The notes beneath the pieces are model-generated. The model made no database searches and was not told the DNA's origin. It was given only the letters and a program-made list of their open reading frames with translations. Below, one piece after another: positions 19,041 to 61,906 of a DNA stretch of 64,000 nucleotides. Made by a program: the position numbers and the translations under genes. The DNA lies in assembly GCA_032622095.1 (NCBI GenBank), contig CP136064.1, positions 262,425,863 through 262,489,862 of the forward strand, in the 5' to 3' direction. The stretch's first letter is position 1; each line of letters begins with the position of its first letter. This stretch comes from Siphonodentalium dalli (Eukaryota > Mollusca > Scaphopoda > Gadilida > Siphonodentaliidae).

Positions 19041-22000
19041 TCAAATAATCGGGCGTTGTCCTTTAGGTGAGTGGGGTGAGTGGTTATCGTATGGATAATA
19101 TACATGTGCATCAGGTGGTTGGTGTAGATAATTTATTACTTTAATAACTTTGCATATTCTACGCATTACTCCTATGTTTCTGTTATTGGGGAGTTGGCTC
19201 ATTTTTGCTGTGGTAGGAAAAGTATAATAACATTTTGCTATATTCGAATATCTGGTTTCTTTCATAGATTCGCATTCTAACATAACATGAAATTCGTTCC
19301 CCAAAACATCACGTTTGCATAGTTTACATCTTTTCCCATTATATGAAGAACCCGCCCAATCGCCAGTCTCTACCGGAAGATGATGATTCCGTGTACGGAA
19401 ACGTATAAGTGTGATGATTTCAGTTTTTGTCAAGTAAGGTTCCGCCTTAAAATAAGGTTTTACCTGGCGATAAAATGCATATTTGTTGGACGAGTTTAGG
19501 GTTTGTGTCCATTCTTGGATATACAAATCTTGGAGTTGTTCTTTCGTGGTGGCTGAGAATAATTACAGAGATGTCACGTTATGGGACTCCCATGTGCCAC
19601 TCAAACCAGTTTCATTTAGTAAGTTATAAACGTAATTAACCCAATTAGATTTGTTATTCTCAAATGTATCATAGTTGAATCTACTGCACAGGGTCCAATA
19701 TAAAAGGTAAGCTATCTTGTTGCGGTCTCCGCTGATCAATTTCCCCCAGTAATTCAGAATTTGGTGCTTAATAACCAGCGTTACTGGGAAAATACCAAGC
19801 TCCCAATATATCAAAGCCGTTGGTGTGGACTTTTTCAGTCTCAATAGGTACTTCAGAAACCATAGTTCGAGTCGCTGTACGATTGCATTGTTTCCACATC
19901 CCCATACCTCTGATCCATAAGTGAGTATCGGTATAACTGTCTTCTGATATAGATCAAGTATAATGTTCAGTGAGAGATTCGTTGTGCGCATTTTAGATAT
20001 CAGGTTGAACATAGTCTTTTAGCATATTGGCATCTTAATTTCTTTTCTTCAACAAATGAACCATTTTTACTGAAGGTAACGCCTAGGTATTTGTAATGGT
20101 TAGTTCTCTCAATCGGCTTACCGTCCAATTGAAAAATGTCATCATCGGTTTTTCTTTTATATCCAAACACCAATACATTACTTCTCGTATTATTGATTTG
20201 TAATTCCCATGCTCGGCAGTAGTTCGGATAGTAATTTAGCATATCTTGGAGGCCACCAGATGTATACGACATCAGAACATTAATCATCGGCGTACAGAAG
20301 ACAGAATAATTTAAGATACTCTATAGATGGGTAGTTACCATTTTGAGTGACGTTTATACCATTAGTTTCACTTGAACTCAGGAACTGTTCCAGATCATTT
20401 GTGTATATAGAAAACAAGATTGGGGACAGGTTGACTCCGTGTCTAACACCATTATCACATGCAAATAATTCAGATTTAGCGTTATTAAACTTGACACACG
20501 ATTTAATGCCCTTATACATATTCATGATAACATCAAGTATTTTACCTCGAACACCTATATCGAAGAGTTTCTGCCATAAGCCTACCCACCATACTCGATC
20601 GAACGCGTTAGACAGGTCTATGAATGCACAGTATAGACTTTGCTTCCTTGATTTAACGATATCTATTAGACAATTCATAGAATATATGTGGTCGGTTGTC
20701 GAGTAGTTTTTTCTAAATCCTGCCTGATTTTCCGAAAGAAGGTTATTCTCCTCTAGACAGTTTTGTATGCGGTCGCTCAGAATAGAGTTAAACAGTTTTG
20801 CAATGCAGCTGACTAAGGTAATGGGTCGGTAGTTTTCTGGTTGTTTTGGGTTTTTAGATTTGAAGATCGGTTGAATTATGCCTACTCCCCATTCGTCAGA
20901 AACAATACCACTTCTGAGTATAATATTAAAATAGATTTGCAAGTGTTTCGATAAGGGGCCCGCGGCTAATTTTATATATTCATTTCTTATTTCATCGATA
21001 CCACTAGCTTGGCCAAACTTGAGTTTGCGGACGGCATTTACGATCTCTTCGAGCTCAATGTGTTTATCAAGTTGCGACAACTCTATAGAGGGTTGTTGGT
21101 AGACATCGTTTTCAGTATATGAATGAGAACTGTTCATATCTGCAAAATAGTCGTGACAATCATCGAGCGTAGGGGCGGATGATGCATTATTTCTTTGCTT
21201 GCCGCTCCCAATTATTTTCCAATACTCTTGTGAATTTGTATGTCAAATGTTCGATATTTTATTTTGGATCATTTCATTATAATTTAGCTTACTGGTCACC
21301 ATACTGGATTTGTAAGCATTTCTAGCTAAAGATAAACGTGACTTGTTTCGATCATTTCGATTTTGTTGATAACGCTTGAGTGCAATGCGGTAATTTTTTC
21401 GCGAATTTGTGCAGTCGCTCGAAAACCAAGGCTTATTTAGTCTCGAACGAGCAGATTTTCGTACCGATTCATATTTACGAGTACCCATGGCTGATGCGGC
21501 AGCTTCGTGATAAATTTCTTTAAACTGATCATTAATAGATGTGATATCATGTTGTGCTAAATCTGACTTACCTTCCAGGGTTTCTAATTGTTCCGCTAGT
21601 TGTGAAATTTTCAACCTATCGAGATTGCGTATATAGTCAATTTCTTTTTCTTTATTCCATTGCTTGACAACTGGGATTTGTTCATCGTGATCGCCGCAAG
21701 TTATGATATTATGATTCGAACTGCAAACACTAGTGTTGTACTCGTTCGAATCATCATTTCCAGCATCCAGACCAAATGATAATGCACAATGCACGTCACT
21801 AATCAAGTTATTAAAGTCATGTACCCGGAACTGTGCTATGTGTGTCATCATAGACTTACTGGTGATTAAATAATCAACGACACTCGCATTTTTACAAGTT
21901 AGACGACCGATGTCCTTATCGGAGCCTAATCGACCATTGCCAATTATTATTTCGGCTTGACGACAAAGGTCAATGAGCTTGTAGCCATAATTGTTAGAGC

Positions 22001-22535
22001 GTTTATCTTGCGAGCTGCGTTGTGGTATATCTATATTGGCTGTTGTGGTCCCGAATTCATTTTCATCACCGGGTATAAAGTCGATGAGCTTGGCAGTTCG
22101 GGCGTTGAAATCGCCAAGCATAAGGATGTTATCACTAAGCCCTTTCACTGTAGCAAGAGAAGTCATTATTTAGTCAAAACATGTGTTTGAGCTATATTTA
22201 GAACCTTCAGGCGGAGCATAAACATTGCCTTCGAACCAGTCATTATATAATGTTTTGATTTTAAACCAGACGATATATTCATTTCCACAATTTTGTGATT
22301 CCTCAAATTTGTTCAAGTTTTCCCGAACAAGTACACAAATACCACCAGATCTATATCTCATTATTGATTGTCGGTTTTTCACAATTAGAACATTAAAACC
22401 AGGGATATCTATACTGTCTAGATCATCTGTTTTCGTCTCCTGAGGGCAGATTATGTCAAATTTCGAGACAAAATCGACAAATTCAGGGTCATCCAACCGG
22501 TTCATAATGCCACAGACATTGAGGGAACATATGTT
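19041..22535 (-). pseudogene. LINE ORF2: endonuclease and reverse transcriptase, broken
   Basis: Reading downwards, the endonuclease starts near 22535 (RLNICSLNVCGIMNRLDDPE), with CPQETKTDD and YAPPEGSKYS. A frameshift near 22170-22190 follows, then LMLGDFNART, SVVDYLITS and the terminal SDVHC motif. A TGA near 21243 interrupts the linker. The reverse transcriptase runs 21137-20280 (YRPITLVSCIAKLF, AGFRKNYSTTDHI, AFIDLSNAFDRVWW, GVRHGVNLSPILF, LLYADD). The frame breaks directly after YADD, again near 20005 and near 19545. The C-terminal part has RFRTRNHHLPVETGDW and a C-x2-C, H, C zinc-like cluster. Family copies usually show Q and a polar residue in GVRQG-NLSP; H and V here suggest decay. 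Confidence 0.88.
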
Positions 22536-23054
22536 TAACCTTCCTGAAAACCTCTCATCCCCACACCCCTATATGCGTGTATTAGCGTCATATGGTGGTG
22601 GCGCACCGGCGGCATGGTCCCCGGAAACCCCATCCATACAGGGCGTGCCTGCAGTACTGATAACATGAGGGGGTGGGGAGGCCGGTGGCATTACATCCGT
22701 GTACCCTTGTAGCACACATAACAGGTGTGGATGTAACAGGTGGTGGGTGACTGGTGGCGTAGCCTCCAGTCGCCCCTGCCATACATGGTATGGGGTTGAG
22801 AGAACTTAGTCCACCCGATGCAGGGATTGTAACCGACTTCTTGCCTGTGGCCAGATCCATCGACATAGAGGGAGCAGCGCCGCCAACAAAATGCATATAA
22901 CCCGATGTCACGATCGAGGGCGTTGCGGGCCGTGAATACTCATACTCCATATCCACGGCTCGAACACCCACTACAGCGACGACAGATAGTGGTGTCGCCA
23001 CCGACATCCGGGAGCCTTGCGGTCCCCGGTCGTCGCTTGGCGCCACCCTACCCA

Positions 23055-24751: not shown

Positions 24752-24868
24752 CCTTCAATTGCGGGGATGGAACATTCAAATGTTCAACCAACGACCAGTG
24801 CTACACAAATGCCACCAAATGTAACAATATCAGCGAATGTCGTGACGGAAGTGACGAGGAAGGATGCC
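24752..24868 (+). CDS. LDL-receptor class A (LDLa) domain exon
   Basis: The acceptor TTTCATTTCAG ends at 24751 and the donor GTATGT starts at 24869. The exon is phase 1 at both ends, as is usual for shuffled extracellular modules. It encodes one complete LDLa: six cysteines in order, beginning FNCGDGTFKCSTNDQCY and ending CRDGSDEEGC with the acidic calcium-cage residues intact. LDLa repeats bind basic ligands in extracellular receptors. An upstream first exon ending in G (6449, 9875) gives an Ala codon at the junction, and splicing to 26290 gives Gln. Because it precedes the 25361 first exon, it is used only in transcripts that start further left, or belongs to a separate gene. Confidence 0.85.
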
Positions 24869-25893: not shown

Positions 25894-26289
25894 AGCCTAT
25901 ATTGCACTGGATAATTATGTATAATATTTTGTTTATACTATATTTTTGTTTCCCTTTTCGCGCATCTGCGTCGCATTCAGTGCACTGTTCGCGCTTTTTC
26001 TTACTATTATGATACGGTTGTCCTCGGCATAAAGCTATTTGTGTCCTTTGTTGTGATTTGTTGGACGGGGATGTGACTGGTCATAATTCACGTGTATCAC
26101 ATTTTAGATGAAAAAAAAAAAACATTCCAGGCAGATTTTGAAAATATTCATTTTGAAATATCGTTATGTTTTGGAAAAACTTGAGTTGAGGCCATAATTT
26201 GCTGAACGCGGTGAGCGCCGATGTTGTTATTTTGAACAAAATTGACGCACAAAACCGTTCTAAAACGAAATATAATCTTTTAAATACAG

Positions 26290-26475
26290 AACAAATCTTT
26301 CATGACACTAAAGTCGCATGGATTGCTGCCAACAGAACATGCCACGACAAAGGAGGAAGATTGGCCGCCTTTCACACTGAACACGAGGTGATGCTTGCGG
26401 CGCGGACACTGGCTGACGGAGAGTCCGTGTGGATCGGAGGACTCAAAAACGACACTGGCTGGGAATGGCGGAGTG
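26290..26475 (+). CDS. exon 2: N-half of C-type lectin domain 1
   Basis: The acceptor TTTTAAATACAG ends at 26289 and the donor GTGAGT begins at 26476, with phases 1-1. It encodes VAWIAANRTCHDKGGRLAAF (A-helix, first core cysteine, G-G-x-LA motif), then the VWIGGLKNDTGWEWRSG block, which is the WIGL core strand and the W-x-W-x-x-G that leads into the long loop. It is exactly the first half of a C-type lectin domain. Its best structural partner is the C-half exon at 38705, which has a compatible phase. The next exon in the genome, however, starts a WSC domain. No convincing alternative C-half lies between 26476 and 26991. Confidence 0.85.
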
Positions 26476-26991
26476 GTGAGTGTCCATCGTGCCATATGAG
26501 AAACTAGCTTCGGTTGTGCGCCTGCATGTGGGCTAAGTTAGCTAGTATTGTACCCTGACACATCTAATTACTCATTCTCTATAATAGAATTAGTCTAATG
26601 AACAAACTTATTACAATCGGATTGCCACACAAACGTGATATTTACTATCGCGCTCGGTATTATTGTTTTGTTCCCGCGAGAAATTACTCGTCATCAGCAC
26701 GTGGAGGAAATGGCAGTGCGGATGCGTGCGCATTCATTGTACCATGCGATTTTCGACATTAGCTTAATTTGCTTCATTCCTGCGAATAGCAGTCGAAGTT
26801 AGATATTATCCAATACTAATACATCTGATTGCTCATAATCTAATGAAACTAATGGACTTAAGTTTATTATAATCGTATTGCCACGCAGGTATGAGAGCGC
26901 CCGTCGCGTATTATTTTTAATATTATTGCGTTTATATGAATATATAGACAGTACCATGAAAACCAATGCGCTTATCCGTCTTTGTTTTCAG

Positions 26992-27125
26992 ACAAGAGCA
27001 AATTGTACGATCGAGTTGGCTGCTTTACCGAGAAGGTACTCAAACCACTTCCAGTCTACGATATGATGAACAGTTTTGGAAAATGCAAAAGTTATTGTAC
27101 TAATTATACTTACATGGGCATCAAG
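26992..27125 (+). CDS. exon 3: WSC domain 1, N-half
   Basis: The acceptor TTTGTTTTCAG ends at 26991 and the donor GTGAGT begins at 27126; phase 1 in and phase 0 out. It encodes DRVGCFTEKVLKPLPVYDMM then GKCKSYCTNYTYMGIK, the classic WSC start (Y/V-GCF, C-x3-C, Y-x-Y-GI). WSC domains are cysteine-rich, eight-cysteine modules thought to bind carbohydrate in yeast wall sensors, polycystin-1 and Kremen-type proteins. Continues in the 30384 exon. Confidence 0.83.
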
Positions 27126-28639
27126 GTGAGTGCACATACACACTGTCTTTGACAAATACATCACGTGTAGTTTTCTTAATCTTTTCAACCATGGACAGGG
27201 ATGTGGTGACATGACACTTGGGGGTCTGAGTGTCCCACTCAAACTTATTATGTAAGGTAATATGATGCCATGTAATTTTAGGACACATATAGCTCGGATT
27301 TATCCTTTATGTTGGTAAAGCAAAGCGATGATGTGAAGAACATTTACAGCTATTTACTTCACAGTTTCATTTCAAGTAGGGAGTTAACGACATCCAGCAG
27401 TTTAATTATGTTGGTAAAGATTTTTAGCACATGGGAAATTCATGTCTGCCATAACATCAGTTGGAAATATGACTCACTTTTGGATCGTTATCCCTTATTT
27501 GAAAGAACTATTCTTTCGGCCAATTTGACCCCATAGCTGGGTGGCCCGCCCCAAATACCCAATATAAACTTCGCCACCCTTCAACCCCACACAGTAGGGC
27601 CATACTGATAGTAGGACCTGTTATGGACCATTTCCGAGGATAGTTCGGATTTTTGACCCCATGGTTTGCCTGCCCCGATGGTGGGGCGAAAATGGCACCA
27701 AGCATTCTAGAATCGTTCGGATATCGGTAAAATTTGTCCCACGGCACCGGGGGGGGGGTGGTGAAGGGCGATGTTGTTTCTGGTGGATATGCGGGCATGC
27801 AAGCCACACTTGTCTTCAAATTTGCCGAATTCGGAACAGTTCTCGTAAATGGTCCATTGACCAGCCCACACCGCATGTGTCACCCTGGAACTACCACGCG
27901 CATATCTTTTTTACACTCTTTACAAATATAATATTATTTTATTAGAAAATCGGCTTTGATCATAAGATAAGGCATTTTCCTTGATTAAGTGAAAAGCATA
28001 TGAATTGTGGGAACGTCAAATTATATGTCTACCAACAATTCGCCGATGAGCAGAGTCCATGAAATTTAAAGTTCAGTAATGTCAAATTACATTGTTTTGT
28101 ATGGATGTTTGTATCTGATTTCAGTTGTCCGTATGTATTTTGAGTGCTCTTCATTTTACATTTATAGTACGGACATGTAGCAATAATTGTTAGTGTAATA
28201 TATTGTTTTCTAATCAAGAAGCGTGCTATATTATTACGACGATGATCCATATATTAAGCATGCGCGAAGTAGTGAGGACTGAATTATGTTTTGAAAGACT
28301 ATACTCCGATCTTGGTAACGCAGACAAGCGACCTTAATTCAAGACGTCTAATTCTTGATATTTCATAACGAATGTTCTCACAATATGTGTGTGTTTCATT
28401 CTGAAATATAGTACATAAATATATGATTAATGTGACATAAACTTTAAGAACTATACATACATTGGCACTACTTATAAGTCAACTTTCGATACTATATGAC
28501 ACGAACATTCCTTAAAATGTCACTGTCTAAAGACCAATACTATGTACAAAATAGCATTCTTTCACGAGTGAAGTTTATATATCTATGACAACCTATCTGA
28601 AGATCATGAGATGGAACTTGATTAAAAACAATGATAATT

Positions 28640-29945
28640 ATTTTCATCTAGAAAGCAAATACCCATACATGATATATTTGAGAATTGTCCTGCCGTGCAT
28701 GTTGGTCGATGAACAATTGGGTTGAGGTGAGTTAAAAACCATAATATATTTAACCTCTCAAACGTATAAAACAATCATTATTTTTGTCTTCTCTTAATTG
28801 CTTTTCATATGCTGTATTATATAGGTCAATTTAACATGTTTACTTACCTGCCAATCAGTGATCTTTTTCTTCGATTGTAATTTCTAGTGTATTAAGCAAT
28901 TTTTGTTTTTGTAAAGAAATACCGAGCCATTATGAAACTATTTTAAATTATATTTGTATTGGCTATCGCAAGACAACCAAAAGCGCTTTCTTGATTGAGT
29001 TGACGTTTCGCAACGTATTGCCAACTTTTCCTGATAACTCAACATGGATTTTCTCAAACATATCGGAAAGTTCATTTTGAAAGTTGGTACAAGCTATTAT
29101 TGTGACTCAATATTTCAGAAGCGTCCACTCGTTGGGAATTATAACCACATTTACTATACTGTTATACGTAAACACTATTTGAAATTTCGCTATTTTCCGG
29201 CACCAAGAACTTTTGTAAGATATAACTTTTTCAACAGTGCAGTTGATATATCCACGATTTCATTTCTGAAGGTCAAGAGAGGAGATTTAGTTGAATTAAA
29301 TATTCCTTGATTCAAGGTTTTTCAGAATTATTTTCATTTGGAGAGACAGATAATGTTCAAATCAAGCCTGTTGTTCAATATAACTGGTCTCAGATGAGTG
29401 TTAGGTCACATGTCAGTTTCCAAGTATCCAGCTGAATAGGTATATCTAATAATGTGGCTTATTTCCAGTTGATATCTTCCTGTTTGAGTGCAATAGGCTG
29501 CATACCAACAGTTGTTTTCATTGGGCTGAAATATTTGTGACTGCTTTTTTTTTTTTTTTTCATGTATATGTTGTATGATGTTATAGCATGCACTTAAAAC
29601 TTCAACCCAGTATTATGACACAAATAAAGCTTCCCTTGATAAAACCAAGACAATAAGCTATTTGGTGATTGGATTGCTATTTTAAATTATTAATTAGTTC
29701 AGCAGTTCTTTGTACATAAAGGGTCAATAATTTAAACATGCAAGTGTATGGAACTCGATTGTGTTTGTCTTCTTTTATATTTGCTCAGATTTTATATACA
29801 AAGATGAGGATAGGTAAAAGTCTATATTGTTCACCAGATAATCAATATAAATTCTTTGTTGAAGATATCATTCAATTTTGCCTTGATTTATGCAAAACGT
29901 TCGTCTGGTCCTTAACAGTTTTAAAAAATAAGTCCATATTAATTA
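28640..29945. repeat. ancient dispersed repeat, copy 1
   Basis: Shares an ordered series of blocks with 43480-44410: TTATTGTGAC-CAATATTT, CAATAAGCTATTTGGTGATT, TTGGGCTG-AAT, and AATTCTTTGTTGAA-ATCTC-like segments. The 28640-28790 part (GAACAATTGGG, CAACCTCTCAAA-GTAT) also recurs in the second copy but in a different order. It is non-coding, within the WSC1 intron. Either an old transposon or a duplicated intronic segment. Confidence 0.6.
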
Positions 29946-30383
29946 ATCATTAGTACATTTGACCATTCTATCTCAATAGTTTGTAACTAGATCTCAATGA
30001 AAGTATATATGTAGATATATTGATAAATTGATCCACTGTTTTATTATTATATCCATTAATGTGTTTTGTTTCGACTTATCAATCCTTGAAATTCCAACAC
30101 CGACTATTTGCCACATGGGGTGTGAACCAAGTCACTCCCATCTTATGTCTGTATTGCCAGAAATGTGGAAACTCCCTAATTGAATGCGATGTAAACTAAT
30201 ATACCCACAGTGTTTGAATTTCTATTGTAGATAGTGCCATAATAATGTATAGGGAAGTCCTTCGGTTGTTGTGAGCCGATGTCTCCAAAACTAATATTTT
30301 GTTCTCAATGGACGCATCTATGTGGGGTAATTTTTTCTGAGATTACAAGTCCTGCACATATAGTCCGCCTTTATGTTCAACAG

Positions 30384-30498
30384 GGTGGGCGAATAAAGTG
30401 TGTTTGTCCAGACGCACAACATATTAAACCGATGTTCCGAGGAACACGATGTGATGTTTCAGGCAACAAAGAATATTCGGTCTCATTGACTAAAAGTG
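30384..30498 (+). CDS. exon 4: WSC domain 1, C-half (short form)
   Basis: The acceptor TTATGTTCAACAG ends at 30383 and the donor GTGAGTATA begins at 30499; phase 0 in and phase 1 out, complementing exon 3. It encodes GGRIKCVCPDAQHIK, then RGTRCDVSGNKEYSV. The C-x-C pair and the terminal SGN-x2-YSVS resemble the end of a WSC domain, but the usual C-x3-C and CGG segment is shortened. WSC1 as joined has six cysteines rather than eight. Could alternatively be a diverged mutually exclusive partner of the 36976 exon, since both have 0-1 phases. Confidence 0.72.
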
Positions 30499-32214
30499 GT
30501 GAGTATATATTTCAACTTTACACCTATATCAGCTATTATCTAGATGAAACGTCCTTGATTAATATATATACATGCCACAATTCCTACGTTGAAATTGGAC
30601 GGTGAATGTAGGTCCAAGCGCCGTAAACAGCCCGACACGCACACTTAGTACGTGCGGGTTGTTTTATGGGTACCGTCAACGATCTAGGTACGACATAAGA
30701 CGGCTAGAAGAATACCTGTATAGCAGCTGAGTAATGTGGAAAGTAATATATACATTTAAGTTCCATTCCGCAGACTTCTTCAACACATTACTGTTGTCCA
30801 TATATGATTTCAAGCAAGTTGGCTTGTGTGTCAAATGGGTTTCAATAAATAATATTTTGCTGAATTTGTGTTTTACCGAAACCAATTTTTTATGAAAATA
30901 TTATTAGTGGTTATGGATGATTCACTGCTTCATATATACGTACTATTACTTTAATCCAATGATTATGTAAGTTTCTATAGAGACAATGCCTCTCAAATAA
31001 CTCTGGCTATTGAATATTGCTCAAGCAACAGTAAGCTTATGCTATCTTACTATTATTTTCATAAAAGCAGTCTGTTATATTCATACGAAAATCAGCGCCG
31101 TGTAAGCACTGTCATTGAAACAGGAAAAAGAAGATAGATAATGTGAAAGTTATTAGCTCTATGGAAATTTGGAGGAAGTTGAACGAGACACTGTGTGACA
31201 TAATTGCACTGGAATTCAGGCGTGTATCACATGACTCGAACACACATATATGCAGGTCGCAACGAGCCGCACAACCATGGTGCAGTTGGGTCGCTTCAGG
31301 TGACTGAGTTGTGGTCTATGCGAAGTGAGAGTATGACTAAATCATGTAAACGATAATTTGTTCACGTACACATGAAGCAATGAACACATCACATCGAGCA
31401 GTGCTTTCACACATTATGATATATCTACATGGGTGAAGTACAATATCTATATGGATTCATTCAGTCTGCAAACGGGTGACCCGATTAAGACGTCTATGCA
31501 CTAAAATATGTCGATTGGTCACCACTGGGTGGTGTATTGTGGTCTATCGCACTATGCACCTTGCCGACTGAACCCATCTTTTCTGTTGCAGACTATATGA
31601 TACATTGAAATGATGACTGCGGTCACACCAAAATCACGAACACACCCTTTGCACGCCGGTGGTGATTTGCCAATCTCGATAGGGGCCGCGTGATTATGTA
31701 TGTGAAGACTACCTTGTATGCACACGGACCCGTAGTTGCGAATTTAAGCTCAAACTGGGGATCTCATTAGAAAAGCAACACAGTCGACTCTTTGTTTATA
31801 TTATATCGAGGGATTCGCATAATATGGGCCCATTCTATATGGAATCTATCAACCGGGTATGCCAAGTTTTCGCTTTGAGCAGACGATTCCGAGGTTCAAA
31901 TCAAACGTCGTGAACAAGATCGACATATTCCATACGAAATTTTGAGCAAAGGTTAGATTAGCTGGTTATTGCTTGTTTAATGTATTGATGCGTGATAAAA
32001 CTCTTCACACGCATGCCTTCATTCATAAATTATCCTGGTTGAACTTTGTCCTGTATATGTATTGTTTTAGAATTATAATCAAAATATTGCACAACGCAGA
32101 GAGGACATAATTCAGCGTAGAGATAAGTTTATACCTAAAATTACCTCATTATGTTCAGCTATACCAGTCATTCTAGTGCGAATTTTAAAGGCGTGGTCCT
32201 CTACAAGTCTGATA

Positions 32215-32692
32215 TTTAAAATCACACAGTACGCAATTGTTATATCAGATGGTTCTGAATCTAGGCTCAGAGAGGCGTATTAAACGCTGGATGTCCTTGA
32301 TCAATTGTCGGGATTGCGTGTCAAACCAGAGAAATGTCAGACGTCCTGGATTTTCTTCATATGTTACTCTTCAAGGAATTCGCTTCAACACACGTTTGGA
32401 ACAATGAAGCAAAATTATGAATCAAAATTAGCACAGATGTTGACTCCTCTTGGCAACAATCATTAGAACACTTATTCTTCCAAAATTGACCCACTTTCTC
32501 ATCACTTCAATCACTTGCGCTCAGTATCTAAATATTGATTATGTTATATTGAAATCTTAAGCGTGACCGAATTAAACGCCGACAGTTATCCCAAAACCAC
32601 GAAACAGGTGGATTGAAAATGGTAGATATAGAACTGTTCAATAAGTCGATGAAAATAACATGGATACGACGATTATACTAAAATATGCAAAA
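32215..32692 (+). mobile_element. Tx1/L1-like LINE reverse-transcriptase fragment
   Basis: In shifting frames the + strand reads QYAIVISDGSESRLREAY, TLDVLDQLSGLRVKPEKCQ, MKQNYESKLAQML and TGGLKMVDIELFNKSMKITW then IRRLY. From memory this is the order seen after the YADD box in Tx1/L1-type LINEs. The aspartates of the active-site box are missing and there are several stops. A dead fragment ending about 125 bp before the WSC2 exon. Confidence 0.7.
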
Positions 32693-32817
32693 CGGTTATC
32701 ACTGGGTGAACTTCCGCTTGACAGTGACAACCTCTTTTTAACTTATGAACACGAATACCCGAACACATACGTTACTATAGAAACTAAATACAGTCATTTA
32801 CACTTTATAATCTGCAG

Positions 32818-32939
32818 AAAGAGGAAAAGACTCTTATCGAGGCTGTTACATCGTCGACGATGCAAATTTTACTATAGATGACAATTCCCTGCAAAAATGC
32901 CAGATGATGTGTGGGTCTTATCCCTTCATCGGTCTTCAG
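32818..32939 (+). CDS. exon 5: WSC domain 2, N-half
   Basis: The acceptor TTTATAATCTGCAG ends at 32817 and the donor GTAGGT begins at 32940; phase 1 in and phase 0 out. It encodes DSYRGCYIVDDANFTIDDNS then LQKCQMMCGSYPFIGLQ, a very typical WSC N-half with GCY, C-x3-C and the YPFIGLQ signature strand. Partner of the 36976 exon. A longer ATG frame nearby (32660-32881) is in another frame and is a shadow. Confidence 0.88.
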
Positions 32940-33149
32940 GTAGGTCACTTACCTTTTTAAATGTACCATATAACTGTGAATGTATTAATAGCGACCACCT
33001 CTCGTTTCGTACTCGGTATTCCGGGTGTTTTATAGGCGAACGCAGGATAAACCGGACAGTGACTGCACAATGCACCCGTTTCCAACGCAACTTTACAATT
33101 CAATAATTTTAGCTCATTTTGACGCAATACAAGCTTGAGCTTTTGCCAT

Positions 33150-33690
33150 GTATTTGTGTCCGCCGTCCGTGTACACGTTCTTGTGTCCGTGCGTCAGTCA
33201 ACACTTTCAATCGCCACACCCTGCAGGCCACATTCCTTATCCGATCATCGCCAAACTTCAAACTGATCTTCGGGGCGACCGCTACATGGGAGCCATCACA
33301 TATGTCCGAAATTCAATAATCGACGTGGCCGCCAGCGACCATTTTGAATTTCACATTCCAACTCAACGGCAAGCGCATATATATTGGAGAAATGTCTTAA
33401 ACATTTACGGGCATGTTTATGTTCACATCTAAATGGAAGCTCTCTGATTTGAACGATGTTCTATAAATCATGGCGACCGGCAGCCATCTTGGAATTCACT
33501 CTGTTTATGACTCTATTCGACGGCACACCCCATATATATGCCACATTCGTTATCCGATCGTAGCAAAACTACATATCTCCGGGGTGGCATCTAGACGGGA
33601 TCTGTTCAATTTCTTCCGAATATCGTTGGAAAATATGGCCGCCAGCAACCATCTTGGATTTAACATTTTAATCAATTGACACACTGCAGG
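33150..33690. repeat. dispersed repeat with internal subrepeats
   Basis: Contains TTATCCGATC-T-GC-AAACT twice (33237-33262 and 33548-33570) and TGGCCGCCAGC-ACCAT twice (33328-33345 and 33636-33653), plus a related GGCGACCGGCAGCCATCTTGG at 33473. This repeated pattern and the GTCCGTGCGTCA start are familiar from mobile-element-derived invertebrate repeats. Non-coding. Confidence 0.55.
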
Positions 33691-33699
33691 TCGCATTTC

Positions 33700-35560
33700 T
33701 TGGAAAACTATTTGAAAATAAGAACAGTTTCATATGTGCCCAATACAACCCCTTCACTAACACATTTTGACATTCCTTTTGCTTTGTCATTCCATTGACT
33801 GCTCATGCAGAACATTAACGCCTATTCAAAGTTAATGTAAAGTGTTATTATCGGTATATCCTGCTCAGTAAGACGAGTATTATCCAAACTTGCGCCGTAG
33901 ATATCGGGGCAAAACCATTTTATATTAAATTACTGAGGTCCCCAACTTCTCGCACGGGCTTGGAACATCCTTGTCGGTTGGTACCTCAATGGCATACGTG
34001 GTGGGAAATATGGTTTACTGAAAAATGGCTTCAAAGAGACTTATTTCAATAACTCTGTGTTGCTCATGGCATGAAACTTCTGAAAGGTGTCAATCCAAAT
34101 GAATGTGGTTAGACCGAATGGCCTGGGCATGCAGCGGGTATATTATGACCCGAAGATGACACGCATGTTATCGTGGACTCAATGTCACGTTTGGACCACA
34201 TTTACAGCCATTAACAACTTGTGTGAAGAATGGAACAATGGAGTGACTGCCCACTCTGCGTCAGTATTTTGCAACTTTTGAAAAGCACCCCTCTTCCATT
34301 CAATTCCTTCTCAGTCGGCCATATCACAACTCACAGGACGGTCCATCGCACAGGTTGTGTCTTAGATACCACTAAATATTTGCGTAAAGTTTCGTCAAAA
34401 TCGATCCAGTATCTCATAAAATATTACCAAATATATTAGGGGGGGCTTTCTTTGTTTGAGGTGTTTATATAACTGATCATATTTTGAACTCCCACCATTT
34501 AATTCGTTTAACTGTTTTCACGATATATTAAAACAAATCTTTCTTTATTTGGGTAATGTTATATCCTAAAATATTCAATATGATGCTCTTTCTCAAAATT
34601 AGTTGATTTCTCAGTAACGGCTTCGTCATTATTACAGTGTCAACAAAGAAATCAAAGATGATCATCAGTCTAATTATTTTTGAAGTCTGCCTAAATGTGC
34701 ATTCTCAGAAAACAATTATATTTGTTTTCTTCGAACATCGTCAGAATGCTTGTGAAGTGCCAAAAATGCGAGGTGATCCAGTTCACTTAGGAAGTACAAT
34801 ATTTCATTATTATGAAGTATTTACTGTCCGATTTTCACGGTTGATGGGTCAAACCATACATAATTATTTGTAAAATGCAATTTTTGCTATTGATTAATAT
34901 ATAATTTTAGCTGCGCATTGTAGTTGTATTTTTGGGAGTGGACATTATGCCAGGTTATGCAATCCCTGTCGTTGATAGCAGTATCGTAGCAACCAGTGAA
35001 GTACATATATAAATGGCCAATGCAGTCTATTAATTAGAAATTGTAAATATGTATGTAGGGTTCCAATTTACAACGGGTACTGGTGGATTGCTGATTGTGG
35101 TATTTACAATGTATATATGTGACAACCCACATATATATATGTAGGAGACGCAAACAAAAACTCAACAATTGAAACATGAAACCCCTATAATATCATTGAA
35201 AAATCCATTACACATTTTCTTATCTGTCACTGGTGGCTAAAAGATAATAGTCCAAGCGGTAATCACTTTCATTGTATACCTGCGCGCGTGATATTATAAC
35301 GGGAAACTGTGAATTACTATTGAAAACTGATTATTTGTTTTGATTAAAATTATATTATTGACAAATGTTACCAATAAATAACCCAATAGACGTCAAATAA
35401 AGACGAAACTAAAAGCGGCTATATTTCTTTGCGCGTGTAGCGTAGTACTGACGTATAGTGGTGAACCGTCTGAGCCAACACAAGACGTGTATACAGTTTG
35501 CGTGTTCCCGGCAGAGCTGATGTTAAAAAGGCATAAAGCTTTTTTTTATGTGATATACAA
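33700..35560. other. intronic, nothing firmly recognised
   Basis: Open frames at 34087-34281 and 34637-34873 show no domain or splice context. Confidence 0.4.
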
Positions 35561-35706
35561 GATCTTCAACTCATTATGTTGGGATATAAGATTTTATGAA
35601 ACTCGTTTGATAAAGTTGATTCGCAACTCGTCTACGACTCGTTATGAATCAAATTTATCAAACTCGTCTCATAAAATCTTATATCCCAACATAACTCGTT
35701 GGAGAT
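35561..35706. repeat. foldback with 62-bp arms
   Basis: GATCTTCAACTCATTATGTT and the following TGGGATATAAGATTTTATG-A arm (35561-35622) are mirrored by 35645-35706, ending GTTGGAGATC. The loop of about 22 bp contains ACTCGT repeats. Confidence 0.88.
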
Positions 35707-36975
35707 CCTCAATATATAACACGAACAGATGGTGGTGTTATGGTGTCAAATTAATGGCGCGTCTTTAAGCTATAACAGATACGATGCTCTGACTGAAAAA
35801 TCAAACACATGTTTAAACAATGTAAGAGATTGACTTTTAAAAAATCTTGTAAAAAAAATATTAATGAAAACCACAAAACGAACTTAAGGGTGGATATAGT
35901 TCTAAATTAATTAAAGACACATTTTGTACTTGTTCGGGTTGTGTGTAACTGACAAGTGAGTATTCAGGCGCTCTGCCAATTGGAGGAAATAGCATTCTAC
36001 TAAAATCACCGAAAATCTCAAGCAAATCGACCGTACCACACAATAGAAAACACAGGCCCCTGTGGAAAATTACTGCAAGTCGCAGACACGTCTAGTTTCT
36101 GGAATTCGTTTGATGAATAACGTTGCAAATATCGAGCACAACCACACCGGATGAAATAAAAGAGGTATCGGTGGCTTCCGAATGGCTTGTAGAAGATATG
36201 TGAGCATTTATAGGTTATGAAATCGCGTTTAATTACACGTTCGCGACAATTATTTGCTCGAAAATATTGATTTCATAACTAGGTAAAATGCCTCTCGGCG
36301 GATAGGGAGATTGACGAGCCGATTTTTTCTGTAGAACTCAGTAGATTCCGATATCAAATCTCGACTTCTCTTCGTTCGATTTCGCCGAGTTATATGTCAA
36401 ATGAAAGGGAATTTTATTGCCAATAAGATATTTTGGCTCCAATTACCGATTTCTAGAATTTGTAGGGTTTTGATTGTTGGTGTGGTTTTAGCCAATATCG
36501 ATCATTGGAACCTTTACACTGGTATTGTCTATATTGGTATTTTAGTAATTCCCCCCAGAGGCCTGTGATAGAAAACATCGTCCGAACTACTCTCAATTGT
36601 AAATATTTACAATTCGGGACGCAACTATCGCCGATAAACTGACGATTTCGCCGTCGAGACTCAATAAATTTAATTAATATATATGAAAGGTGGAGTAATA
36701 TTCGTTAAAATAACTGCCGGAGTGTTTCACATCACTTTAATATTTGTTCTTAGTCAGAGACCGTTGCCACCAGTATAGGCCATTCATCCGACCAGATATG
36801 ACAAAACAACAACCGATAGAAAGAACACAAATTCTAGTGACGTACACGTAGTACTCTATTCGGCATTCTCATACAAGTAATATATAGTTCATTTTGGGAT
36901 AGGTACATCTTCGTGATGTACAATGCTGTCCAATGGCAGCAAATGCGGGTAACCTATTACTTTGTCTGCATGCAG

Positions 36976-37111
36976 GGACAGTCGTGCTACTGCTATACGC
37001 ATTTCGATCTGAGACAAGAAGATGAACATGCCTGCAACATTCCTTGCCCCGGAGATCCTGGTCAAGCATGTGGTGGTAAAAACAACACACTGGCAATCTA
37101 CAGCCGAAACA
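36976..37111 (+). CDS. exon 6: WSC domain 2, C-half
   Basis: The acceptor TTTGTCTGCATGCAG ends at 36975 and the donor GTAAGT begins at 37112; phase 0 in and phase 1 out. It encodes GQSCYCYTHFDLRQ, then HACNIPCPGDPGQACGGKNN and TLAIYSRN. C-x-C, C-x3-C-PGDP-x3-CGG and a final IY strand are diagnostic for the WSC C-half. With exon 5 the domain has the full eight cysteines. The downstream phase allows joining to the lectin C-half at 38705. Confidence 0.9.
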
Positions 37112-37392
37112 GTAAGTAGATCGTTTATATTGGGCATTGTGAGATCCATGTTTGTAGGACCGACATGGTGTTGGAGCTCTCTTACCGTTTTTTTTTTGGA
37201 TTGATTTTTAATTTTTAATAACAAATGATATAACAACAAAATTATGAACAATTATATGATAAGTATATTACAGGAGAAGCATAACCATGGTTGGTCGTCC
37301 TCCTGCCGCCCCTGAATGATATATAAATATAAGGATGGCGGATGAATTCAAAGAAGATGTATTCACGGTACTCTAGATACAGCACCAATATA

Positions 37393-37500
37393 TTTTATTG
37401 TTGTCAGAAGATTCAATTTCAAGCCCAAATCAACCGCAGTTGGAAATTTCAGACGTCAATTATGTTGAGTGTTACGATGGTTCCGATATGTTGAGTTTCC
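37393..37500 (+). pseudogene. possible CUB-like exon relic
   Basis: After an acceptor-like TTATTGTTGTCAG (ends 37392), a phase-1 frame reads SDVNYVECYDGSDMLSF, resembling the D-x-V-x-V-Y-DGSD stretch of CUB domains. It hits a TAA near 37520 with no good donor before it. It is either a decayed exon or chance. Confidence 0.2.
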
Positions 37501-38704
37501 AACAAAATTCTAGGATAAAATAAGTGGATCTCATACCAAGATTATGACATGTTACTGGCTTGAGTCAAATTGTGGGGCTGATATGGACATCAGGTGGAAA
37601 TTGCCAGTCATAGGATAATTTTATGTTGAAAATTTTGAAATAACGAAGTTCGATGTATCAGTCAGAAGACGCCAACAGACGGGCGTGCATGTTTGGTCTA
37701 CAAGTGGGTCCGCATTTGACTCCCATAAAAAACACCTATCCACATCCCTAATCCGCCAGTCTGTGAAATATCATTCGGGATATAAAATGATATAGATAGA
37801 TATATATATTAGCGTAAATGCGCTTCTTTTCCGCACAAACGAGTGTCGTTGGTACATGTCCAAGACCAGTCAGGTCTAGGATCATACAGTATAGTAACTA
37901 TTACTGGTGGAAGAATATTCTTTTATCTGATATGCTTGAATATTTCAGCGTCGACTGTATTTACATTTTGTATAGCAAGACACATTGAAAATGGGGGGGG
38001 GGGTTGGAGTAATAGGTAATGTGCATCGTTCGGCACATATTACAATAAGTAAATGGATGGTAATGTGATTTGTTAATCTGGTCAAGTTGCTTTAGAGGCC
38101 AACAGTTTCCACGTGTATCGAAGTGATTTCCAGTTGAAATAAACCATATATCTGGGCAGTACCCCCTCCAGACATCAACCTGTCAACTGACGTCGATACA
38201 CAAACGTCCAACAAATAAACCATTGATATTCCAAGGAACACAACTAGGTTTGTTTCCCTCCGGTGTTTGGCACTCTGTGGCCATCATACTTACATATATT
38301 CCATGTCATAAACAACAGAAAAGGTACGACTTCATGGTAGCGGAAACATTGCGGTTGTTCTAAAGAAAATCCAATATGCAAACACGATTATTATATATGG
38401 TGCTCGGATTTTTGGTTATTTTTAAGTGATTGTCAGGGTCAGACATCACTGCTAACTTGTTCTCGGGATTTATATGCCCGATTTAGCCGGTGTTCATGAG
38501 TCAGATTATGTACACATTGTTCATAAGAATATATACTCCAGAGCAAAGTAGCATTTAAACCGAATCCGATTAAGAGAAATGGAATATTTCGATTGTGTAT
38601 TAAAAATGTGTCTCGAATTCATGGGCTGAACTGAAGTTGTCATCCCTCCCATTATCTAAACCGCTTGATTGCGTCTCAGCACATATTTTGTCTTGTCTTT
38701 ACAG

Positions 38705-38874
38705 GATCAAAATATGTTGGCTGGGATCAAGGACAGCCATTAGCAGCAGCCAACTGTGCATGTGTGTCTGCTTTTGATGACTATAACTCTATATATTGGA
38801 GGGCATCGGTATGTGGTGACGAAGGGCCAGCGTTGTGCTCTAACTATAATATTGATTACTCAGGAAATCCACAG
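38705..38874 (+). CDS. exon 7: C-half of C-type lectin domain 1
   Basis: The acceptor TGTCTTTACAG ends at 38704 and the donor GTAAAT begins at 38875; phase 1 in and phase 0 out. It encodes SKYVGWDQGQPLAAANCACV, then YWRASVCGDEGPALCSNYN. This is the W-x2-GQP loop, core cysteine, W and final C-x6-C of a C-type lectin domain. It follows directly on WEWRSG of the 26290 exon both in fold and phase. The GQP loop lacks an EPN or QPD motif, and YWRASVC replaces WND-x-C, so classical calcium-dependent sugar binding is unlikely. Confidence 0.87.
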
Positions 38875-41445: not shown

Positions 41446-41626
41446 AATGAATTTAGTGTTGATGGAAAGCAAAACTGGACGAGCTCTATCGGAGTATGCT
41501 CAGATAAAGGTTCCGGTTGGATATTAGATGAATCTGGTATGGACTTGTCAACGAATTCAAGCGAGTTCTTTTCAGACTGTTATTGGATCGGCCTACATAG
41601 AGATTACAGCTATATATGGACTAATG
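41446..41626 (+). CDS. exon 8: N-half of C-type lectin domain 2
   Basis: The acceptor TTTTGTTCTAG ends at 41445 and the donor GTGAGA begins at 41627; phase 0 in and phase 1 out. It encodes KQNWTSSIGVCSDKGSGWIL, then FFSDCYWIGLHRDYSYIWTNG. The WIGL core and the W-T-NG end place the exon boundary at the same fold position as in lectin domain 1. It joins exon 7 without any linker exon, so the two lectin domains are adjacent. Confidence 0.83.
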
Positions 41627-41806
41627 GTGAGAATTATTTAAGACGTCACAATCCTATCCAAATTTAAACAAAAGTACCTTATTTGTCCTCAGACATCTCG
41701 TCCAAGAACACCGAAGTTAATATGATGAAAATGGGTATAAAGGCATTTATTATATTTCCGTCAACTTTTTATATAAAAATCCTATCCCCACTCCCAGAAG
41801 ACCAAT

Positions 41807-42895
41807 CGTGTTAATCCACTTTCAATGTGTTATGCTACTCTCAGCACTGCGTCATGTGATATATTTGCGTCATTTGTTATCTTTGTGCTCTAGTTTAACA
41901 GAAATGACTGCTGATGTTATAGCTTTAAACACACGTTAGGTCTAAATATTTATTACACGCTTGTTCCTAGAAATACATTGTTATTGCTGTTCCATATTTA
42001 CAAATCCGTATGGAACGTACGTTCCATACGCATCTCGTTGACGTAAAATGACGTACATGACGTTCGCCTCAACCATGAAACTGGAATTATTTAAATAAAA
42101 GAATCATCACACATGACAAACGCGCCCTGTATGAGCCTAAATAAACCTTCTAATCCTGTATTTTTAATGCACGGATTCTAGGACGCGAAGCGTGTAATAA
42201 ACACAGAACGACACGATGTGTAAATGGGTTTGTCGATACGGCACTCGTTCTGTCGCGGAAGGATAGAAATCGAGGCGCAAGCGCCTCTTGTTCTATCCTT
42301 CCGCGACAGCACTCGTGCCGTATCGACAAACCTATTTACACATCGTGTCGTTCTGTGTATGTATTTCATTATGGACTCGGTCGTGACAAACTGGTATCGA
42401 AAATATAATAAACGCAATCGTTGACTGTTCTGAGCAGCGTATCGTTTCTCCCCTCTCATGAGCGCCTCTTTAAAATTATATAGGAGAAAAACGGTACGCT
42501 ACTGAGAACAGTTAGCTATTGTCTATATACCACTATACTATACTACAGCCGACATAACGTAATACATAGATAATAGTTAACTGTTCTGAGTAGCGTACGG
42601 TTTTTTTGACATGCGGAGGATTATTTGTACGAGGTGATAGCCGAGTGAACATAATCCTGGCATCTCACGAGAGGAGAAAATCCGTACGATATTCAGAACT
42701 GTTGACTAATGTGTTTATTATATTTTCTACATCATTTTGTTACGACCCAAACCACAATGAAACACACGGTTAGATATAACACGTTCTTAAAGCCATTTCT
42801 GTTAAAATGACGCGCAAGAATACCGAATGACGCAGAAATTGACGTCATAACGCAGTGTTGAGAGTATGATAACATATTGAGATTAGGTTAACACG
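41807..42895. repeat. large nested foldback element
   Basis: The outer arms (GTGTTAATCCACTTTCAATG at 41808 and its diverged reverse complement ending 42894) enclose a middle arm pair (42361-42424 and 42708-42772, AAAATATAATAAACGC type). Within are two smaller hairpins with GACTGTTCTGAG-AGCGTA termini (about 42422-42517 and 42573-42708). A 156-bp near-perfect palindrome (42202-42357) lies in the left part, and a 24-bp perfect palindrome at 42007-42030 (CGTATGGAACGT centre). Likely several MITE or foldback insertions nested in one element. Non-coding. Confidence 0.75.
42202..42357. repeat. 156-bp near-perfect palindrome
   Basis: CACAGAACGACACGATGTGT at 42202 is mirrored through GAGGCGC-AA-GCGCCTC at the centre to ACACATCGTGTCGTTCTGTG at 42357, with few mismatches. 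Overlapping frames on both strands are palindrome artefacts. Confidence 0.92.
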
Positions 42896-43479
42896 TTCCG
42901 TCTTCTCGGTGTGGTGATATGATTTATATTTTGAGGTAAAAAGTTAATGAAAATATAATAAAACTTCATAACCTAGCAGTACAAAATCTATGAAAAACTC
43001 ATCAATATTTATCAAAAAGGCCCAGCGTGAGATAAACCACTCCTGAGGATTAACGTGTTACACCCCACCCCCTAACGAAATAAAAGAAAATCATAGTATG
43101 TACTATTGTATACACGCATGGCTGCCGAGATACCCCAACCTTGTTATGAATACACAAATATCCCGTTTATTCATATAGATAATTATTAATGATATATTAA
43201 TATCACCGCCATATGCTATATACAAATATATTCATACATATCATTGTGAATTGCACCGAATTCTGACACCTTTCTTCTCAATACGTATTGTCATACGATG
43301 AGATTATCTAATACATTGACCATATTGAATTCGATGTACTTTCGTGTGCTCCATAGCAAGGCCATTATTGGAAAAAATATAGACACTATTAGCCGAGAGT
43401 GTCCAATTGTCACCGCATATAGGGTTGTTGTTCTAACGTTACCACGAACATCCCATGTGCGAGCAGTTAAGGATCAAAC

Positions 43480-44410
43480 GCACGTGTTGCCAAAATTTCC
43501 TGATATTTCAAAATGTATTTTCTCAAAATTTGTTAGGAATATTTTCGTGAAATTTAGTAGAAGCGATTATTGTGACGCAATATTTAAAAGCCATTGACCA
43601 ATTGGATATTATAACCTCACTTACTTTACTTTTATGGCATGAACATTATTTAAAATTACACTTTTTTAAGGTACCAATGAATTCTGTAAAATATATATGT
43701 TTTCAAAAGTGCAGTTCATTTATCCATTGATCGTATCTCAAGACTTAAATTATTCCTTATTTGTGAAATTTGATGATGATTATTTTCAATAAGAAATGCA
43801 ATTACCCATAACTAATTGTCTATATTTGAGGATGTTCATGCCATGACTGTTGGTCAATGAACAATTGGGCTGAGATGAGTTGTGGGTCATGGGATCATAA
43901 CAAAGTTAAAACTTATCACCATATATGTTAACACTGTGGCTTAATTCCCGTTGTTTGCTCCCTGCTTGAGTGGACCACACGGCATATCAATATTTGTTTG
44001 CTTTGGGCTGGAATAGTTTTGACTGCTTTATTCTTCATTATAGTGTATAGGGTATGATGCTACATACGCAATTTGAAAGTCTAACTCAACATTATGATAC
44101 AAATGAAGCCTCCTCTCATAAAGCCAAGGCAATAAGCTATTTGGTGATTGGAGCTTTGAGTAAAATTATTAATTATTCTAGCAGTTCTTGGTATCGAAAT
44201 GGGGGGGGGGGGGGGTAAAATAAAATGTTCAACCTCTCAAATGTATTAAACACCATTGTTTTTGTTGTCTCTTACTAAGTGCTCAGATTCTACATACAAG
44301 GGGGTGATTATATGTGAAATTCAAGATTTATTGTCAGATAGATCCAGAGAAATTCTTTGTTGAATATCTCTTGCCATTTTTGGCTGGACCTATGCAAAAA
44401 GGGCGTCTCC
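43480..44410. repeat. ancient dispersed repeat, copy 2
   Basis: Collinear diverged match to about 28980-29945, including CAATAAGCTATTTGGTGATTGGA (quoted in part) and flanking blocks. It lies in the lectin-2 intron and includes a G run at 44202-44214. Confidence 0.6.
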
Positions 44411-44629
44411 CAATAAAACAACAATACCACGCGGGGTGAGTAGTTGGATCTCTGGACTAATATGGGTGTATTTGGTTTATATCATGTTTATTATTCTTGA
44501 TTTAGCTGTTACGACGTAGTTCTACTGTTTGAACAAACATTGTAACTATAAGTACCATTGCCATTTTTACATCAACAGTAGAACGTTATACCGCAATATG
44601 TGATATGTATATACACCATAACATAAGCA

Positions 44630-44905
44630 ATGATAAATCATAAAACAAAACAATTACTGTTTATCATTAATCGTTTCCACGCCTGCATACTATTCAACAA
44701 TGTTCTATACTTTTCATTCAAGGAAAAAATTGGCATTGACAACTTTGGCACTTCTCTCTGTGTCATAACCGGATTATGTTCCTATCTCTATCAAGATGGT
44801 CAATTTTTGACCACCACTAGCTATGACAATGACGCGCAGTGCATTCGCAGCAACCAAACATATCTAAATATTCTGTTGCATTGGTGTATGGAGAGTAGAT
44901 CTTAG
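44630..44905 (+). CDS. unrecognised 91-aa ORF in an intron
   Basis: A frame beginning MINHKTKQLLFIINRF and containing SLCVITGLCSYLYQDG and DAQCIRSNQTYLN-type stretches, five cysteines and one N-glycosylation motif. Cysteine spacing hints at an extracellular module but matches no domain I can name. No strong donor is seen. Probably chance or a relic. Confidence 0.15.
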   Translation: MINHKTKQLLFIINRFHACILFNNVLYFSFKEKIGIDNFGTSLCVITGLCSYLYQDGQFLTTTSYDNDAQCIRSNQTYLNILLHWCMESRS

Positions 44906-45545
44906 TTTGCACATATGGCATAAAACACATGTTGGTATTCGCTGATTAACATATTTAGAAATGAAACGTTTATTATGACTCCAACTCATGCATATGGTTC
45001 GTGGTACATAGTCGAGGTCTATGTCTGCCCGGCTGTCTGGAGTGGTCGAACATACCACATTGTAACTCGGGTGTTAATTAACTGAGTTCATTGTCCTTCG
45101 TCGTGGTGATATCGCAGCTTGACCCACATAACACGAGTTACGGCCCTTGTTATAACTTGGAACTTTGGCAATATTGCGTCCCATATGTCACTCAGATTGT
45201 GACTTGGGCATGGGCTAGCCAATTTTGCTGTACTTCGGTATGGTGATAGTACAGCCTGGGGAAAAGGATACCCACATACTATTACGGGGTTCGTACATTA
45301 ATTTTGACCGTATCGGCCCTCGTTTTACTTTAAAGTTTGTAAATATTGTGTCTGTACGAACATTTCAGCTTGTACATTTGGCATGGATCATCCGATTTGG
45401 TTGTGATTTGGTATGTGTATAGATCAGTTTAATGGGAAAGGATACCTGCTTAATGTGTGGTTCGTCCATTCATTTTACCAGAGTTGCGACACTGCTTTGA
45501 CTTTCACTCTGCACGGACAGTTGGCATTCGCACCCCAGTTGCAAT

Positions 45546-45661
45546 GGTCAGATTTGTAAATGTTATTTGGAATGCTAATAGACCAGGATTGATGGAATGA
45601 TGCTGGTCAGATTTGTAAATGTTATTTGGAATGCAATGCTAATAGACCAGGATTGATGGAA
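45546..45661. repeat. 57-bp tandem duplication
   Basis: GGTCAGATTTGTAAATGTTA, then TTTGGAATG-CTAATAGACC and AGGATTGATGGAAT, occurs twice in a row; the second unit has a 5-bp CAATG insertion. Confidence 0.93.
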
Positions 45662-46168: not shown

Positions 46169-46200
<32 letters not shown>

Positions 46201-46217
46201 CTATATATATATATATA

Positions 46218-46900: not shown

Positions 46901-46936
<36 letters not shown>

Positions 46937-46959: not shown

Positions 46960-46973
46960 TATATATATATATA

Positions 46974-47649: not shown

Positions 47650-47684
<35 letters not shown>

Positions 47685-47707: not shown

Positions 47708-47713
47708 TATATA

Positions 47714-48579: not shown

Positions 48580-48732
48580 GACTACCGGTGACATTGCATG
48601 TAACAGAACAAACGTCCCTTGACGATGAAGCAAACTGTCTTATACTGCGAAGAAATTCAACTGGTGACTTTGGTATTCATGACGCACCATGCACTGAACA
48701 TCACACCTTTCTATGTGAACATCACATTAAAG
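48580..48732 (+). CDS. exon 9: C-half of C-type lectin domain 2
   Basis: The acceptor TTTTTACTGCACAG ends at 48579 and the donor GTGAGC begins at 48733; phases 1-1. It encodes LPVTLHVTEQTSLDDEANCL, then GDFGIHDAPCTEHHTFLCEH. The pattern DD-x2-NC, G-x-HD-x2-C, FLCE is the standard lectin-domain C-terminus. IHD stands where WND is expected and no EPN or QPD loop is present, so sugar binding of the classical kind is doubtful. Completes the domain begun at 41446, across a 7-kb intron packed with foldbacks and Helitron-like elements. Confidence 0.83.
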
Positions 48733-51071: not shown

Positions 51072-51140
51072 GAACAGACAGCACTCACGATGACCGCAAC
51101 GAATATCAGACCACAACATCCGCTTTGCCAGGGTCATACG
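51072..51140 (+). CDS. stem exon c (best supported)
   Basis: The acceptor TTCGTTATTCACAG ends at 51071 and a strong donor, GTAAGT, begins at 51141; phases 1-1. It encodes TDSTHDDRNEYQTTTSALPG then SY. Ser/Thr-rich and charged, with no cysteine, consistent with a glycosylated stalk between lectin domain 2 and the membrane. It joins in frame to the transmembrane exon at 61792. Confidence 0.68.
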
Positions 51141-61791: not shown

Positions 61792-61906
61792 GCACGAGTA
61801 CAATTGGGACAAATAGTTCTAAGGACGGTAGTGCTGACACTACTGTCATTATTGTCGGTATCGTAGTTGGCCTCCTATTGGTAGCAGCTATTTGTTCAGC
61901 GTGCAT
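61792..61906 (+). CDS. transmembrane exon of the lectin-WSC receptor
   Basis: The acceptor TTATATTTACAG ends at 61791 and a strong donor, GTAAGT, begins at 61907; phase 1 in and phase 2 out. It encodes a short Ser/Thr-rich stalk (TSTIGTNSSKDGSADTT), then the hydrophobic segment VIIVGIVVGLLLVAAICSA then CM. That makes a single-pass type I anchor, outside at the N-terminus. The phase matches stem exon c (Gly codon at the junction). The cytoplasmic exons should follow to the right but I cannot identify them. Confidence 0.8.

Follow-up and report, generated by a model that had tools for sequence, protein, structure and literature searches.

Can a C-type lectin domain (CTLD) carry whole WSC domains in its long loop? 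The question is raised by a locus of the scaphopod Siphonodentalium dalli, which was analyzed within a window of 64,000 nucleotides (nt) of contig CP136064.1 (assembly GCA_032622095.1, positions 262,425,863 to 262,489,862). A preliminary description, made from the sequence alone, had noticed two exons resembling the N- and C-terminal halves of one CTLD, 12 kb apart, and between them four exons encoding two WSC domains. It appears that the WSC exons are most likely joined to their neighbors in at least some transcripts, and the loop of the CTLD would then carry one or two WSC domains. The whole region would form a single gene that encodes a predicted single-pass surface receptor, consisting of an LDL receptor class A (LDL-A) module, two CTLDs (CTLD 1 and CTLD 2), a stalk, and a transmembrane segment. 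Taken jointly, these two readings are regarded as moderately probable.

The lectin half-exons

Nine exons on the + strand can be chained in a single frame, all with AG/GT borders and compatible phases. Their order is LDL-A, C1N, W1a, W1b, W2a, W2b, C1C, C2N, and C2C (Table 1), where C1N and C1C are the N- and C-halves of CTLD 1, C2N and C2C those of CTLD 2, and W1a to W2b the halves of the two WSC domains (WSC 1 and WSC 2). The lectin half-exons of CTLD 1 were confirmed where the preliminary description had placed them, with AG/GT borders and phases 1-1 (26290-26475) and 1-0 (38705-38874).

Do these two exons belong to one domain? C1N in its raw reading frame scored 23.5 bits against the Pfam family Lectin_C, slightly over the cut-off of 22.6 bits (cut-offs for WSC and Ldl_recept_a are 27.8 and 24.1 bits). 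As a bounded exon it scored 29.0 bits. The direct join of C1N and C1C scored 42.5 bits and covered profile positions 2-106 of 107. In other words, C1C adds 13.5 bits, and by itself it had no match in Pfam or the PDB. More evidence came from a local CTLD profile, a small home-made one built from eight CTLD stretches of the PDB matches to joined CTLD 1. According to this profile, none of 934 splice-bounded phase-1 candidate exons, taken from the two strands, completes C1N better than C1C, with C1N itself set aside; the latter ranks first by adding a second N-half. None of 1000 shuffled versions of C1C reached the score of the real one. The joined domain also aligned across the junction to CTLDs of DEC-205, the PLA2 receptor, and the mannose receptor in the PDB. 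The single-domain i-Evalues of these matches were modest (the best printed was 0.00024), and the whole-sequence E-values, down to 7.3e-17, sum many CTLDs. The Pfam gain, the local profile, and the shuffles support the earlier claim that the two half-exons are one CTLD split at W-x-W-x-x-G. A separate lectin half in the gap, which the preliminary description had named as one finding that would speak against it, did not turn up in a pattern search. None of 41 phase-1-in and 29 phase-1-out candidates fit CTLD patterns, which is good but incomplete evidence, as a C-half without Trp (for example, C2C) would escape such a search.

CTLD 2 (41446-48732), absent from the preliminary description, is also split by a phase-1 intron at the equivalent place. 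This intron follows W-E-W-R-S-G in CTLD 1 and I-W-T-N-G (x-W-x-x-G) in CTLD 2. Neither C2N nor C2C alone had a Pfam match. Joined, they scored 25.3 bits against Lectin_C, and their PDB matches included KLRG1 (E 9.3e-06) and CD69. Several CTLD genes have been described with an intron that follows the WIGL motif, namely those for Fugu AFPL, sea raven antifreeze protein, and salmon serum lectin (PMC514892). The WIGL motif sits in strand beta 2, and the long loop is variable and provides the ligand specificity of CTLDs (PMC7618208). In agreement with this placement of WIGL, the split point of both CTLDs, as judged from their motifs, lies approximately where the long loop begins. The preliminary description had the exon ending exactly at the start of the loop. 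Sequence and phase place the split about there, not at an exact residue.

Joined CTLD 1 has WIGG at position 47, with Gly as the fourth residue, and cysteines at 17, 79, 81, 98, and 106, which may pair among themselves. Because no EPN/QPD-type or WND motif was found in CTLD 1 or CTLD 2, ordinary calcium-dependent sugar binding appears unlikely for both, and the loop may tolerate an insert.

At CTLD 2, the loop intron is 6953 nt long. Pfam gave nothing above cut-off there, and strict splice thresholds, which three of the nine gene exons (LDL-A, C1N, and W2b) themselves fail, left no phase-matched candidate exon. CTLD 1 has a WSC cassette in its loop intron; these searches have so far found none in that of CTLD 2. 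The latter intron also contains a threefold direct repeat of ~750 bp (46189-48448), whose copies are 88-93% identical and whose open reading frames (ORFs) include CA/TG-type runs.

The WSC cassette and its alternatives

The four WSC exons measure 134, 115, 122, and 136 nt. Their sum of 507 nt is divisible by 3, and the cassette begins and ends in phase 1. These borders and this length bear out the earlier description of a symmetric, frame-neutral cassette. Inclusion and skipping both keep the frame, as had been stated; a third in-frame outcome, W1a spliced to W2b (phase 0-0), had not been listed. The predicted junctions C1N-W1a and W2b-C1C are derived from splice borders and phase.

The identity of WSC 2 is clear. 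W2a joined to W2b scored 44.5 bits against the Pfam WSC family (E 1.9e-11), contains eight cysteines, the usual number in a WSC domain, and gave a weak PDB match to Kremen-1 (E 0.012). W1a and W2a had no Pfam match when taken alone. However, W1a resembles W2a, as none of 500 shuffles scored as high in pairwise alignment. Furthermore, W1a joined to W2b scored 45.3 bits from profile position 2, on par with W2a+W2b. Between W1a and W2a there are four phase-0-to-1 candidates, of which W1b alone has a C-x-C close to its start. Of the 122 phase-0-to-1 candidates on the two strands of the window, 6 have the pattern C-x-C...C in this position; they fall at four places (W1b, W2b, within C1C, and 38341). 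A tandem with the real W1b scored 55.4 bits, compared to 45.9-49.4 bits for nine tandems with shuffled W1b, all of which it outscored. A second WSC stretch was counted in the tandem, but with shuffled W1b too. W1b joined to W2a scored 21.3 bits, which is under the cut-off. NCBIfam gave no match for the WSC tandem or WSC 1, and a search of viral contigs with W1a+W2b gave none either.

Two further candidate exons were tried and rejected. The first is a possible decayed third WSC first half at ~37404-37517, with a good-looking acceptor and a YVECYDGSD start. It had no Pfam match, and 430 and 244 of 500 shuffles scored as high against W1a and W2a, respectively. The second is an alternative second half of WSC 1 at 38341-38437, which starts with C-x-C and has weaker splice scores. 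It gave no Pfam match with W1a and is positioned after WSC 2.

How could WSC exons come to lie inside a lectin domain? A symmetric phase-1 WSC module was probably shuffled into the phase-1 loop intron and then doubled there. Splicing such a module into an intron of the same phase would leave the frame undisturbed. The two WSC domains would add an insert of ~169 residues to the loop of CTLD 1, lengthening the domain from 118 to 287 residues. WSC domains count as putative carbohydrate-binding modules. The receptor may then present a putative glycan-binding module at the ligand face of a CTLD that does not have the usual calcium and sugar residues. With the full cassette in place, the local profile matched on either side of it, with 22.8 bits at positions 2-64 before it and a weak 6.4 bits at positions 61-105 after it. 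Open frames, WSC cysteines, and normal splice sites make it most likely that the WSC exons are spliced in, in at least some transcripts. At a more tentative level, the locus could encode a composite lectin. Splicing would switch the face of CTLD 1 between a bare CTLD, one WSC domain, and two WSC domains (perhaps with W1a or W2a before W2b), all in frame.

Several results weigh against the inclusion of two WSC domains in one lectin domain. With the full cassette in, Pfam reported only the lectin N-half (26.3 bits, profile 2-67). The short linkers at both cassette ends could hamper folding. Most of the contrary evidence concerns WSC 1. W1a+W1b on its own had no WSC match in Pfam. W1b and W2b showed no pairwise similarity (450 of 500 shuffles scored as high), and W1b alone had only a sub-threshold match to an EGF family (E 0.095). 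W1b has three cysteines and W2b five, so WSC 1 has six, is two short of eight, and is degenerate. W1a+W2b placed inside the CTLD scored 41.8 bits, no worse a WSC domain than the other combinations. The cassette introns contain copies of a dispersed repeat, indicating a region in flux. Likewise, Pfam scored C1N+C2C at 48.4 bits, above C1N+C1C. The interpretation of the preliminary description is thus supported in part. It stands for the split CTLD, the frame-neutral cassette, and the absence of a rival half among the candidates searched in the gap; inclusion of the cassette, its alternative splicing, and folding of the domain around it are predictions. One of its "two WSC domains" is clear; the other is degenerate.

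Does the lectin gene use the cassette at all? One alternative is that C1N is always spliced to C1C (26475-38705). The WSC exons would then be remnants of a gene that was shuffled or duplicated, or else form a small gene of their own within the intron. Direct splicing yields a complete domain across which Pfam scores 42.5 bits, compared to the interrupted one, of which only the N-half is seen, and WSC 1 looks eroded. However, WSC 2 is intact and has good splice sites, and the cassette lies on the same strand as its host intron, with phases that suit it. Between the WSC exons, the frames of the + strand gave only sub-threshold Pfam matches and none above cut-off that would indicate a separate gene. 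This alternative is considered unlikely.

A second alternative accepts the splicing of WSC exons into the lectin but proposes a single WSC domain, in which W1a and W2a are mutually exclusive first halves of a domain completed by the shared W2b, and W1b is not an exon. The near-equal scores and fitting phases of the two W2b joins agree with it, as do the missing WSC match of W1a+W1b and the sub-cut-off score of W2a+W1b. However, the fit of W1a to W2b is equally expected of duplicate WSC domains, and W1b in its place outscored all nine shuffles, with good splice sites and the expected C-x-C. A single domain of this kind is distinctly improbable.

It is very doubtful that the arrangement is an assembly or haplotype artefact in which a misjoin put the WSC exons into the intron. 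Near-identical duplications do occur in the window (5737-7007 and 9162-10427, 99.4% identical), as does the threefold repeat at 46.2-48.4 kb, but they fall outside 26290-38874. That interval was found to share with the rest of the window only a diverged repeat (~68-82% identity, depending on the setting), plus one short internal inverted repeat, and a misjoin would be unlikely to yield four ordered, phase-matched exons. Finally, it is hardly credible that C1N belongs to another C-half, such as the phase-compatible and higher-scoring C2C, and C1C to another N-half, because the local profile reverses the Pfam order (39.7 bits for C1N+C1C and 29.2 bits for C1N+C2C, with 0 and 29 of 1000 shuffles as high), and C1C would be left without a partner, with no Pfam match for C2N+C1C and no N-half found ahead of C1C by pattern search.

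Gene architecture and repeats in the window

The exons assigned to the receptor gene, in which the WSC exons are read as part of CTLD 1, are collected in Table 1 together with two candidate exons downstream of CTLD 2. With its large introns, the exon structure looks like that of animal DNA. The predicted transmembrane exon gave no Pfam match. Three short Ser/Thr-rich ORFs that look alike by eye (~49630-49700, ~50440-50510, and 51072-51140) are possibly duplicated stalk exons. Raw-frame Pfam scans covered 9000-18703, 24001-56504, and 60001-63302 of the + strand. These scans overlooked C1C, C2N, and C2C, and their silence elsewhere is thus weak evidence.

Table 1. Exons of the predicted receptor gene, with positions in the window, strand, and phases at entry and exit.
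Feature	Position	Strand	Phase	Evidence
LDL receptor class A exon	24752..24868	+	1-1	Pfam Ldl_recept_a 24.5 bits in raw frame (cut-off 24.1)
C1N, N-half of CTLD 1, up to W-E-W-R-S-G	26290..26475	+	1-1	Pfam Lectin_C 29.0 bits, profile 2-59 of 107
W1a, first half of WSC 1	26992..27125	+	1-0	134 nt; similarity to W2a, WSC match when joined to W2b
W1b, probable divergent second half of WSC 1, weakest exon	30384..30498	+	0-1	115 nt; C-x-C near start
W2a, first half of WSC 2	32818..32939	+	1-0	122 nt; WSC match when joined to W2b
W2b, second half of WSC 2	36976..37111	+	0-1	136 nt; alone WSC 25.8 bits, profile 47-82 of 82, slightly under cut-off 27.8
C1C, C-half of CTLD 1, from long loop on	38705..38874	+	1-0	Completes C1N
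C2N, N-half of CTLD 2	41446..41626	+	0-1	Lectin_C match when joined to C2C
C2C, C-half of CTLD 2	48580..48732	+	1-1	Lectin_C match when joined to C2N or C1N
Probable Ser/Thr-rich stalk exon	51072..51140	+	1-1	Splice-bounded candidate only
Probable transmembrane exon	61792..61906	+	1-2	Hydrophobic VIIVGIVVGLLLVAAICSA between splice sites; membrane span judged by eye

The introns around both CTLDs contain a diverged repeat of ~930 bp. It is present as two long copies (29013-29906 and 43482-44408, 68% identical), a partial copy (28352-28813), and a fragment on the other strand (26119-26187). A 31-base inverted match between the ends of the two long copies hints at terminal inverted repeats, and the element looks like a non-autonomous DNA transposon. 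The two long copies might also be taken for a segmental duplication of the two loop introns. A dispersed repeat is more likely, and the similarity was rejected as evidence of a CTLD duplication. The W2a-W2b intron contains an inverted repeat at 35553-35715, whose arms of 80 nt are 81% complementary and stand 3 nt apart.

Other elements were noticed elsewhere in the window. The copies at 5737-7007 and 9162-10427 are ~1.27 kb long and 3.4 kb apart, and represent a recent duplication or an assembly duplicate. By eye, long broken ORFs on the minus strand at 19044-22568 have the look of a LINE-type retrotransposon, and ORFs at 63215-63445 (+) and 63686-64000 (-) resemble the GIY-YIG part of Penelope-like elements.

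Known receptors and the meaning of the arrangement

Which known proteins does the predicted receptor resemble? Human PKD1 is a membrane protein that has a WSC domain as well as a C-type lectin domain, and the two are listed separately (PMC1934368). The likeness to the Polycystin-1 and sea urchin REJ (PKD1) family is that WSC and CTLD occur together in one predicted membrane protein. However, the WSC exons here interrupt a single CTLD, with one half on either side, whereas in PKD1 the domains are separate. In PKD1, the WSC and C-type lectin domains are arranged in linear order, and an LDL-A module is also present. The scanned + strand parts gave no PKD, REJ, GPS, or PLAT domain, although the gene may extend past the window and such scans can overlook short exons.

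The mannose receptor family (DEC-205/LY75, PLA2 receptor, and MRC1) provided the best PDB matches of joined CTLD 1. It shares with the predicted type I membrane protein an arrangement of tandem CTLDs. In contrast to that family, only two CTLDs were found here, together with an LDL-A exon and a WSC cassette in a loop intron, and the closest PDB match of CTLD 2 is KLRG1 instead. Members of the mannose receptor family also have ricin-type and FN2 domains, neither of which was found in the scanned parts. Kremen-1 is comparable through its WSC domain, the weak PDB match of WSC 2. In Kremen, the WSC domain adjoins kringle and CUB domains and is not placed inside another domain. Genes in which an intron follows WIGL, such as those of fish antifreeze-like lectins, have it in the same general position as the CTLDs here. 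The likeness is one of position, and the part of PMC514892 that describes these genes mentions no domain exons in that intron.

In the titles and abstract openings of the open-access papers that came up, no report was found of a WSC domain inside a CTLD or its loop. Exon shuffling is a known process; a target inside a domain is unusual. Because the two CTLDs of this gene share the position of their loop intron, one with the cassette and its sister without it as far as found, the arrangement can be tested. If true, it would represent exon shuffling that acts within a domain and not between domains, and the addition of a whole domain through a loop intron would be a direct, frame-safe route to a new binding module in a lectin.

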